A DNA stretch of 56,010 nt from Bacteroidaceae bacterium (GTDB taxonomy: Bacteria; Bacteroidota; Bacteroidia; Bacteroidales; Bacteroidaceae): assembly GCA_017555585.1 (NCBI GenBank), contig JAFZGA010000007.1, forward strand, positions 1 to 56,010. The letters run 5' to 3'. Position 1 is the stretch's first letter. The number at the start of each line of letters is the position of its first letter. Positions 43,474 through 49,690 of this stretch are shown piece after piece. The notes beneath the pieces were generated by a model. The model was not told the DNA's origin. It saw nothing but the letters and a program-made list of their open reading frames with translations, and ran no database searches. The position numbers and the translations under genes were made by a program.

Positions 43474-43647
43474 ATGAAAGAACTTATCGAGAAAATCCAG
43501 GAGACTTATGCTGCATTCGAGGCAGATGCAACAGCTCAGGCTGAAAAGGGTAACAAGGCTGCAGGTACACGTGCACGCAAGGCTTCTTTGGAGCTTGAGA
43601 AGGCTATGAAGGCTTTCCGTAAGGCTTCTCTTGAGGCTGCAAAGTGA
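43474..43647 (+). CDS. Small histone H1-like DNA-binding protein
   Basis: A 57-residue Lys/Ala/Glu-rich protein starting MKELIEKIQETYAAFEADAT and ending KAMKAFRKASLEAAK. It matches the short histone H1-like (Hc1-type) proteins found across Bacteroidetes, which are abundant nucleoid proteins. Preferred codons and its own promoter and terminator (43676-43706) support high expression of a single gene. The longer frame from 43417 is not used, because the promoter overlaps it. Confidence 0.85.
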   Translation: MKELIEKIQETYAAFEADATAQAEKGNKAAGTRARKASLELEKAMKAFRKASLEAAK

Positions 43648-43706: not shown

Positions 43707-43733
43707 ATATATCAAGTTCCGGTTGTTTGGCCT

Positions 43734-43774
43734 TGCAAATACTTTGCATGTCGTTCATGCAAATATTTTGCAAA
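43734..43774. promoter_or_regulatory. Candidate activator site: two TGCAAA-N5-TGCAnn direct repeats
   Basis: Half-sites lie at 43734 (TGCAAA), 43745 (TGCATG), 43758 (TGCAAA) and 43769 (TGCAAA). Each pair has an 11-bp period, about one helix turn. The last half-site ends exactly 33 bases before the start of the -7 box (TATATTTG, 43807-43814). The same arrangement and distance recur upstream of the gene at 44976. Confidence 0.6.
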
Positions 43775-43806
43775 CCCTCAAGATCAGTTTTCATTATTTG
43801 AATAAC

Positions 43807-43814
43807 TATATTTG
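43807..43814 (+). promoter_or_regulatory. -7 box of the membrane regulator gene
   Basis: TATATTTG, 24 bases before the ATG at 43838. No TTTG -33 lies at the right spacing, which fits a promoter that depends on an activator bound to the adjacent repeats. Confidence 0.55.
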
Positions 43815-43837
43815 CAGTAAACAATGATTTTACAAAG

Positions 43838-44866
43838 ATGAATAGGTATTATTATTTAATGTGTCTGTTTATGTCGTTATCTTTTTTTCAGTGCTGCTCA
43901 TATAATGAAAAAGAGAAAGGGAATGATTTGCAAGGTGTTTGGATGCTGAAAAAGATAATATTCCCAACAGGGTATGAAGTCGATTATCCAAACAGCAGAG
44001 GTTATGTGCGTTGTAAAATATATGATGCCGACAGCAGTTTCTATCAGGTAGAACTTCTTTCTGTGGGGAATGAAACAATAATAGTGCCACTTGAACTTGA
44101 ACGTTACACATTTATACATGATGTGACAGATACTTTGCTTGTTGAGAATGGACGATACATGCGACATTTTTGTTTGACAAGCGATACCACATACACCGTA
44201 TTCAACAATCTGGAGCAAGAAATATGGGTGAAGTCGAATGATATGACAGAAAATCGTAAGGAGGAAATACGTACTATTGTCAAAAGGAATATAGAGACAT
44301 ATGAAGATGATATAAAGAATTTTGTTTTTTCAACAAGTGAAAGAAAACTTGAAAGGAAGAGCCGCAACCTGCTTTTTGTCATTGCCAATCTTGTTCTTTT
44401 GGCAATATTACTTGCATTGTACATGCGCAGTGTCATAAAGAAAAACAAGGTTATAAAGCGTGAACTGGAACTTATTGAGGAACAGAACAGATTAAGACCT
44501 CAGCCTGTCATTCAGGCTATGAGACAAGTAGAGCAAGAGTTTTTCTCATCTGATTATTACCATGCTTTGCGCGGAAAGATAGAGAGTGGGGAGGTGTTGA
44601 AACAAGAAGATCTTGACGAACTTGAACAACATATAAAGCCTCTGTATCCCAATTTTTCAACTCGACTCCATTCGTTGTACAGCATGTCTGTACATGAATA
44701 CCAGGTTTGTCTCTTGCTTAAGATCAATATCTCGCCATCACAGATAGCAAGTGCCCTTTGTCGCGAGGTAAGCAGTATAAGCAGTACGCGTAGCCGGTTG
44801 TACAGCAAGGTCTTTGGAAAGAAAGGAAGTTCCAAGGAGTGGGATGCGTTTATCGCAACACTTTGA
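43838..44866 (+). CDS. Membrane-spanning one-component HTH regulator
   Basis: A 342-residue protein with an N-terminal export signal (LMCLFMSLSFFQCCSYNE), an outside beta-rich domain (~25-150, opening DLQGVWMLKKIIFPTG), one membrane segment at ~177-196 (VIANLVLLAILLALYM), a cytoplasmic coiled-coil-like stretch (IKRELELIEEQNRLRP) and a C-terminal HTH (EYQVCLLLKINISPSQIASA, then REVSSISSTRSRLYSKVFGK). The HTH end resembles that of TPR-HTH regulators in Bacteroides. This is the layout of a sensor that binds DNA while in the membrane. The next gene encodes a secreted protein similar to its outside domain. Ligand and targets are unknown. Confidence 0.78.
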   Translation: MNRYYYLMCLFMSLSFFQCCSYNEKEKGNDLQGVWMLKKIIFPTGYEVDYPNSRGYVRCKIYDADSSFYQVELLSVGNETIIVPLELERYTFIHDVTDTLLVENGRYMRHFCLTSDTTYTVFNNLEQEIWVKSNDMTENRKEEIRTIVKRNIETYEDDIKNFVFSTSERKLERKSRNLLFVIANLVLLAILLALYMRSVIKKNKVIKRELELIEEQNRLRPQPVIQAMRQVEQEFFSSDYYHALRGKIESGEVLKQEDLDELEQHIKPLYPNFSTRLHSLYSMSVHEYQVCLLLKINISPSQIASALCREVSSISSTRSRLYSKVFGKKGSSKEWDAFIATL

Positions 44867-44893
44867 TGTCGGAAAAACTTAGTGTATCCGTTT

Positions 44894-44910
44894 TGCAAAC
44901 AATGTGCAAA
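44894..44910. promoter_or_regulatory. Candidate activator site: TGCAAA-N5-TGCAAA
   Basis: TGCAAA at 44894-44899 and again at 44905-44910, 11-bp period. Its end is 33 bases before the -7 box of the following gene, the same distance as at 43774/43807. Confidence 0.6.
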
Positions 44911-44918
44911 CTTCGTTT

Positions 44919-44950
44919 TTTGTGATCCGGCAAATAGATTGTTACATTTG
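44919..44950 (+). promoter_or_regulatory. Promoter of the secreted sensor-like gene
   Basis: TTTG (44919-44922) and TACATTTG (44943-44950) at exactly 20-nt spacing; transcription should start around 44957 and the ATG is at 44976. Confidence 0.7.
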
Positions 44951-44975
44951 CAGCGCCGTTTTTAATGTCGTTAAT

Positions 44976-45479
44976 ATGAAAAACTATTGTTTAAGGAACA
45001 TTGTGCTGATACTGCTATTCTGCATGGCGGTACCGGTGTCGGCACAAAGAACAGAAAAGACAGTTCCTGACGAGGAACTTAAAGGTGTCTGGGTGTATAC
45101 TTCGTACAAGGTCGGCGACAAAATGTTCGGCAACGATTTTCATTCAATAAAGATTTACGGTGAGAATGGTGAGTATTGCTGTGCAAGAGCACAAAAACTG
45201 CGATGTGGTACATACAGAATTCTTCCTGTAGATTATGGGACATATGTTTTCAGAAATGGAGAATATACAGAATGTGGACGTAAAGGAAATCTGAATCTCG
45301 TCTCTTCTACGGAATTTAATGGAATGTATATCGGTCGCTTGGAATGCTGGGAAAAAGTAGAGGATTTTCCTCAGGAGTTGAAGCAGTATATTGTAAATGA
45401 ATGCCGTAAGGCTGTTCTTGGCGACGATATGGAATTACAGAATCTTATGGAACGTTACTGGATAAAGAGAAAAAGATAA
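44976..45479 (+). CDS. Secreted protein related to the regulator's sensor domain
   Basis: A 167-residue exported protein (signal peptide cut near VSAQR) with a lipocalin-like or similar beta domain. It aligns with the outside domain of the preceding regulator: ELKGVWVYTSYK versus DLQGVWMLKKI, KIYGENGEY versus KIYDADSSF, PVDYGTYVFRNGEY versus PLELERYTFIHD, and a WEK/WVK strand near the end followed by a helix. It may bind the same ligand or compete with the sensor (inference). Start at the ATG 44976, which lies behind a good promoter. Confidence 0.72.
   Translation: MKNYCLRNIVLILLFCMAVPVSAQRTEKTVPDEELKGVWVYTSYKVGDKMFGNDFHSIKIYGENGEYCCARAQKLRCGTYRILPVDYGTYVFRNGEYTECGRKGNLNLVSSTEFNGMYIGRLECWEKVEDFPQELKQYIVNECRKAVLGDDMELQNLMERYWIKRKR

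Positions 45480-45631: not shown

Positions 45632-49690
<4,059 letters not shown>

Follow-up and report, generated by a model that had tools for sequence, protein, structure and literature searches.

The window, a stretch of 56,010 nucleotides from a Bacteroidaceae bacterium (GCA_017555585.1, contig JAFZGA010000007.1), carries a gene for a membrane-spanning regulator followed on the same strand by a gene for an exported relative of its sensor domain, each preceded by a direct repeat and a −7 box. The features of the locus are as follows.

43732..43748, minus strand: reverse-oriented repeat of 11-bp period, CTTGCA-N5-TTTGCA on the plus strand, with one mismatch
43758..43774, plus strand: direct-repeat candidate operator TGCAAA-N5-TGCAAA before the regulator
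43807..43814, plus strand: TATATTTG, −7 box of the Bacteroidetes type, 33 bp past the first repeat
43838..44866, plus strand: membrane-spanning regulator, 342 aa
43925..44287, plus strand: outside sensor domain of the regulator, about residues 30–150, homologous to the secreted protein
44369..44425, plus strand: membrane segment of the regulator, residues 178–196, mean hydropathy 2.79
44672..44863, plus strand: C-terminal HTH-like domain of the regulator, about residues 279–342, a weak match to the HTH of EvgA, taken as cytoplasmic
44894..44910, plus strand: direct-repeat candidate operator TGCAAA-N5-TGCAAA before the secreted gene
44943..44950, plus strand: TACATTTG, −7 box, 33 bp past the second repeat
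44976..45479, plus strand: exported paralogue of the sensor domain, 167 aa, from the ATG at 44976

The regulator begins with a hydrophobic N-terminus, followed by the outside domain, a single membrane segment (178–196) and the C-terminal HTH-like domain; the last three parts had been described by the first-pass annotation of this DNA. The secreted gene starts 109 bp behind the end of the regulator, and its product opens with a hydrophobic, signal-peptide-like stretch; the 191-aa ORF with a GTG start is simply the longest frame. Directly 5′ of the regulator's operator lies a gene for a small histone H1-like Hc1 protein (43474–43647, Pfam E 1.1e-22). The pair is followed by a large GH2 beta-galactosidase with an F5/8 domain (45638–49690), and a similar GH2 gene also follows the pair in two other loci (L019 and L020); the exact TGCAAA-N5-TGCAAA was not found before the GH2 gene in the window scan.

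Both window repeats stop exactly 33 bp ahead of a TAnnTTTG box, which we take to be the consensus behind both −7 boxes. This arrangement, reported by the same annotation, is confirmed. The window contains two exact copies of TGCAAA-N5-TGCAAA and no third on either strand; 100 dinucleotide shuffles gave a mean of 0.02 and a maximum of 1. Overlooked at that stage was the second repeat of the regulator's operator, the reverse-oriented one at 43732–43748, which sits 9 bp ahead of the first forward repeat, so that the two lie head to head. The half-sites at 43734 and 43758 also form exact TGCAAA-N3-TTTGCA palindromes, which occur nowhere else in the 1.58-Mb draft genome (55% complete). A palindromic operator TGCAAA-N3-TTTGCA was rejected as a candidate: relatives in which the palindrome is broken still keep the direct repeat, and the direct repeat is therefore the conserved element.

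A direct BLASTP comparison between the regulator and the secreted protein of the window gives no significant match (E 0.26), and profiles are needed to join the two outside domains. Aligned by hhalign, the sensor domain and the secreted family match over 145 columns, signal-peptide columns included, with a probability of 99.6 and an E-value of 1.8e-23. This profile comparison identifies the outside domain of the regulator and the secreted protein as homologues, which bears out the resemblance first proposed. A G-x-W motif, of a kind known from lipocalins, is invariant in both the secreted family and the sensor domain. Y-x-E-x-x-R is kept by every secreted member and predominates in the sensor domain, the window regulator having L for Y. 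Seven of 27 secreted members match Lipocalin_4 of Pfam weakly (best 1.5e-4) and one matches DUF4488. The partner in VtrA/VtrC is lipocalin-like, and the secreted protein here may be so too. When a profile of the 27 secreted proteins was run against 26 genomes, its sole match in 21 of them was the regulator's own outside domain (E 2.4e-12 to 1.7e-21); G165 yielded both that domain and a separate partial relative, the window genome, G014 and G233 yielded secreted proteins alone, and G106 yielded nothing. In the window genome this profile does not reach the regulator at 1e-6. G233 carries two additional secreted paralogues away from any regulator place found for that genome: one (L187) is preceded by three units of another word, TGTTTATT, at the 11-bp period, and the other, a fourth paralogue (L186), lies directly behind a 437-aa ORF.

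Relatives of the regulator are found in 64 of 151 genomes of the window's family, and a profile search at 1e-35 matches 114 of 399, both counts including genomes that match at the HTH end alone; by our own count, about 91 of the 399 have matches below 1e-79. Across 198 genomes of the order there is, besides the window's own genome, one match, in a genome of another family. The 23 relative loci in named genomes are labelled Bacteroidaceae, Prevotellaceae, Prevotella or Bacteroidales, and many come from ruminant samples by title. The analysis uses 96 non-redundant regulators, 56 from a first set and 40 from a later one. The first set comprised 73 loci; no regulator with a C-terminus came from L040, L099 or L101, and two spurious ORFs (L059, L063), a 62-aa fragment (L098) and 14 duplicates at 95% were removed. 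The later set was drawn from 64 loci of at least 265 bits in genomes numbered above G150, from which 24 duplicates at 95% were removed.

A membrane segment is present in all 91 full-length regulators, flanked on average by 5.5 K+R on its C-side versus 2.8 on its N-side, an excess that fits a C-terminus located inside the cell. A strict lipobox near the N-terminus is found in 31 of the 91, besides the membrane helix, and these proteins may be both lipid-anchored and membrane-spanning. The window regulator matches no Pfam or NCBIfam model at cut-off. Among 54 members compared with Pfam at 0.01, the matches are chance-like, or to DUF6377 in three; neither GerE nor a winged-helix effector with a receiver domain is matched. 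The family has no match to a kinase or receiver and reaches the cut-off of no Pfam model. The NCBIfam model BT3442_fam was considered and set aside, since it matches 25 of 54 members at 0.01 but far below its own cut-off; of four members checked singly, three match it, over the C-terminal domain. In the excerpted text of PMC2954219, the sole statement about BT_3442 is that it holds TPR motifs. The HTH profile matches the HTH of EvgA weakly (E 0.22), and the C-terminal domain thus weakly resembles an HTH of the LuxR/NarL type; this match and the operator evidence below together suggest that it is the DNA-binding part. Searches of solved structures with the full, sensor and secreted profiles gave nothing better than E 0.02. 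Judged by title and the start of the abstract, the family is undescribed among the literature matches listed, a search whose scope lies mostly outside subscription journals and wholly outside bioRxiv preprints.

The repeat, whose absence upstream of orthologues the first-pass annotation had named as evidence against its reading, is conserved among relatives. We scanned 200 bp on either side of each regulator for any 8-letter word recurring with at most one mismatch at lags of 8 to 26, with expectations taken from first-order Markov copies of each region. In the first set, lag 11 occurs behind the regulator in 45 of 55 regions (4.8 expected) and before it in 23 of 56 (4.2 expected); the runners-up are lag 22 downstream (14 vs 5.5 expected), an excess such as arrays of units would make, and lag 21 upstream (11 vs 5.2). 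The later set, fetched after the scan rule was fixed, gives lag 11 downstream in 33 of 40 regions (4.2 expected) and upstream in 22 of 39 (2.9 expected), with lag 22 again the runner-up downstream (12 vs 3.1 expected). By the rule used for the pair analysis, the repeat lies upstream of 51 of the 96 regulators and downstream of 82. Self-control is therefore not universal, as 45 of 96 have no upstream repeat; the downstream repeat is missing in 14, nine of which have a gap of 60 bp or less. The words vary between regulators (TGCAAAC, TGCGAAA, TGCGAAC, TGCCAAC/G, TTGCAAG, TTTGTAAAC), and the period stays at 11 bp while the word changes. Behind the regulator of one locus (L066), six units follow one another. 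Repeats laid out head to head, as in the window, occur upstream of three and downstream of 28 of the 96 regulators, and 20 of the 28 downstream ones have a 7-bp gap.

The distance to the −7 box is likewise constrained. For repeats of the form TG[CT]NA[AG] at 11 bp (179 sites) and a TAnnTTTG box within 10–75 bp, we obtained 140 repeat-to-box distances, of which 68 are 33 bp and 33 are 34 bp (101 of 140 together), so that the 33-bp spacing of the window is a family property. Second and third peaks, at 44 and 45 bp (seven and six cases) and at 55 and 56 bp (four and two), lie one and two turns further up. The far spacings, seven at 63–66 bp and 13 at 74–75 bp, depart from exact multiples of 11 and reach the limit of the counted range. 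A box stands at 30–36 bp in 45 of 47 upstream regions with a repeat and in 56 of 77 downstream ones, being absent in the other 21.

A secreted relative lies directly downstream of the regulator in 57 of the 96 loci. The earlier annotation proposed that the regulator controls both itself and this relative, and suggested searching homologous pairs for the repeat. In pairs with a gap of more than 60 bp the 11-bp repeat is present in the gap in 48 of 48 cases, 36 of which also have it before the regulator. For the same 48 pairs, lag 10 is found in 10, lag 12 in nine and lag 22 in 21, and the controls give three of 48 for a coding stretch, six of 47 for a flank and a Markov mean of 4.45. These counts support the proposal, with a limit in the window's own genus. 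Nine pairs are separated by at most 60 bp, which leaves little room for a separate promoter of this kind, and no repeat is seen between their genes (the 17-bp gap of L020 left out); six of the nine carry the upstream repeat. Six of the nine also come from other members of the window's genus (L020, which has the same regulator as L043, and L044, L148, L150, L159 and L163), with the secreted gene 17–43 bp behind the regulator and no second operator. Among genus members with the pair, that operator is confined to the window and a near-identical strain (L019, L155), which speaks against an arrangement fixed in this lineage.

The other 39 regulators have no secreted gene directly downstream, although in a few of them (such as L058 and L064) the contig ends first and in one (L093) the secreted gene is upstream; the repeat is nevertheless found within 200 bp behind the regulator in 34 of the 39. 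At several loci other exported genes take the neighbour's place, and the secreted relative is one version only among the neighbours. We scanned ten proteins, of which eight are such neighbours and two, L103 and L108, are encoded behind unlinked sites. Thioredoxin or AhpC-TSA families are matched by six, five of which exceed a Pfam cut-off; one matches Porph_ging, and three, L103 and L108 among them, match nothing. Repeats of TGCAAA at 11 bp also precede genes similar to the DUF4369/thioredoxin-like exported neighbours at L105, L107, L111 and L112, where no regulator is seen alongside, and some regulators may therefore control more than one locus.

Several observations bear on which protein owns the repeat. 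The 151 genomes contain 123 exact TGCAAACN4TGCAAA sites. Of these, 44 are no more than 300 bp away from a regulator gene (50 such genes, in 39 genomes); a further 29 fall elsewhere in the same 39 genomes (0.74 per genome), and the 112 other genomes account for 50 (0.45 per genome). At 35 loci the fourth base of the promoter-proximal words agrees between the two sides of the regulator more often than when permuted (30.5 vs 25.5), with none of 5000 permutations as high, although the permutation ignores kinship. In G233, a single contig, two paralogues differ in word, and each word is found at the locus of its own regulator: CGAA predominates at one, where a single upstream half-site reads CAAA, and CAAA is used at the other. 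Of seven other pattern matches there, at least six look like a −7 box read backwards. Genome-wide, TGCAAAGGTAnTGCAAA is the reverse complement of the TTTGCA beside the TAnnTTTGCA −7 box, and because of this mirroring, searches for pairs of TGCAAA catch promoters. We also considered a code by which Asp or Glu in the recognition helix would go with a particular fourth base. The fourth base is G in nine of the 23 regulators that lack Asp at one position of this helix and in none of the 55 that have it (Fisher 4.5e-6, for an association picked post hoc). On the tree, built like the D/E counts from proteins over 290 aa, with the pair test using the 78 rows having both traits, this shrinks to about four versus zero independent pairs (p 0.125), and such a code is at most suggestive. 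From the comparison as a whole, we infer that the regulator's HTH binds the repeat.

Comparison of the relatives thus reveals homologous outside domains and a conserved repeat with its period, place and distance to the box; we infer from these the activating role of the regulator and the role of a ligand. The pair would, very probably, constitute a self-contained envelope-sensing switch, in which a membrane-spanning activator acting on tandem operators turns on both itself and its exported neighbour. The regulator would sit in the inner membrane, exposing its sensor domain on the outside and its C-terminal HTH to the cell interior. On signal, tandem HTHs would fill 7-bp half-sites placed one helical turn (11 bp) apart on the same face of the DNA, usually 33–34 bp upstream of the −7 box, and RNA polymerase would be drawn to the regulator's own promoter, giving positive feedback, as well as to the promoter of the exported neighbour. 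A membrane-tethered activator bound in tandem on one helix face just upstream of the −33 region would account for the constant period and distance, for the arrays and for the operators common to regulator and neighbour. About half of the family has an upstream repeat, and in these members positive self-control is likely. The neighbour appears to be a duplicate of the sensor domain that is released, and is most likely an output, which would bind the same ligand and either buffer it, as feedback, or carry it. A further and more tentative idea, for which we hold somewhat less than even confidence, is that each regulator has a private word, at the 11-bp period and a set distance from the promoter, that insulates it from its paralogues in the same cell, and that in one branch the released sensor copy serves as a soluble decoy tuning the sensitivity of the receptor.

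The neighbour could instead be a partner that the sensor domain requires, in the manner of VtrC and VtrA, and not an output. The genes adjoin in 57 of 96 loci, the VtrA/VtrC-like partner is a lipocalin-like periplasmic protein (PMC9214523), and seven of 27 secreted relatives touch Lipocalin_4. However, the gene is not directly downstream of 39 of 96 regulators, the secreted profile finds the regulator alone in 21 of 26 genomes (many of them incomplete), and in most cases the secreted gene comes with a separate operator, as expected of an output. We regard an obligatory co-receptor as unlikely, if still the most credible competitor, and favour output or feedback because so many relatives have no such neighbour. 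A regulator acting as a repressor released by its ligand seems less probable again. Repressor sites usually overlap the promoter, whereas here the proximal repeat lies upstream of the expected −33 region at a nearly fixed spacing (101 of 140 at 33/34 bp), a position that fits contact with polymerase.

The repeat might also belong to another DNA-binding protein controlling the locus, such as a global regulator or an alternative sigma factor. Read on the opposite strand, TGCAAA matches part of the −7 box TAnnTTTGCA, and single TGCAAA words are for this reason expected near promoters. Such an owner would have to account for paralogues of one genome that differ in word, each at its own locus, for a period that stays at 11 bp across the different words, and for sites clustering at regulator genes, and we consider it improbable. 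Hardly credible is shared ancestry alone, by which the repeats are functionless copies left by duplication of a promoter. The domain common to both proteins does point to an origin by duplication, but the words change while period and distance stay, in proteins that share as little as about 28% identity with that of the window, and the flanks look unalike, judged by eye.

The proposed activator switch shares features with several known systems. VtrA/VtrC and ToxR/ToxS are co-component systems in which a membrane-tethered transcription factor is encoded beside a periplasmic protein (PMC9214523), a likeness seen here in the adjoining gene of 57 of 96 loci. In those systems the HTH is N-terminal and the partner is unlike the periplasmic domain of the factor. 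In the family here the membrane segment precedes the HTH-like domain, which is C-terminal, and the partner is homologous to the sensor domain itself. This partner usually has its own operator and is missing beside many relatives; the 39 of 96 loci where it is not directly downstream speak against an obligate heterodimer in the style of VtrA/VtrC. Transmembrane transcription regulators are reported to be enriched in Bacteroidia and, like the family here, carry sensor, membrane segment and DNA-binding domain on one chain; for Bacteroides, the account in PMC10269533 concerns mostly hybrid two-component types, whereas our family has no kinase or receiver match. SusR-like regulators of Bacteroides likewise combine periplasmic sensing with a C-terminal DNA-binding region and direct-repeat motifs, but in their predicted motifs the centres of the repeats are separated by 67 or 77 bp, and the motifs serve glycan loci (PMC3878776), in contrast to the 11 bp and the exported neighbour here. 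Such SusR-type spacing is not the case in this family, for which lags up to 26 bp were scanned and the repeat is at 11 bp. Operators of similar form are those of PhoP/PhoB-type regulators and SARPs, which have 7-bp words, 4-bp spacers, tandem binding and arrays of more than two units (PMC4832192, PMC5930380). The repeats here follow the tandem 7+4 layout of OmpR/PhoB operators, and tandem binding is predicted for them. Those proteins are soluble and use OmpR-type or SARP DNA-binding domains, whereas here a weakly LuxR/NarL-like HTH in a membrane protein would bind.

If this reading is right, a large set of uncharacterised membrane regulators of gut and rumen bacteria (96 here) carry their operator beside their gene, so that both their target genes and their DNA specificity could be read from sequence. 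The changing word on a fixed frame would then be a natural experiment in the joint evolution of an HTH and its operator, and a sensor that produces its receptor domain in soluble form as well would give bacteria a simple equivalent of a decoy receptor.
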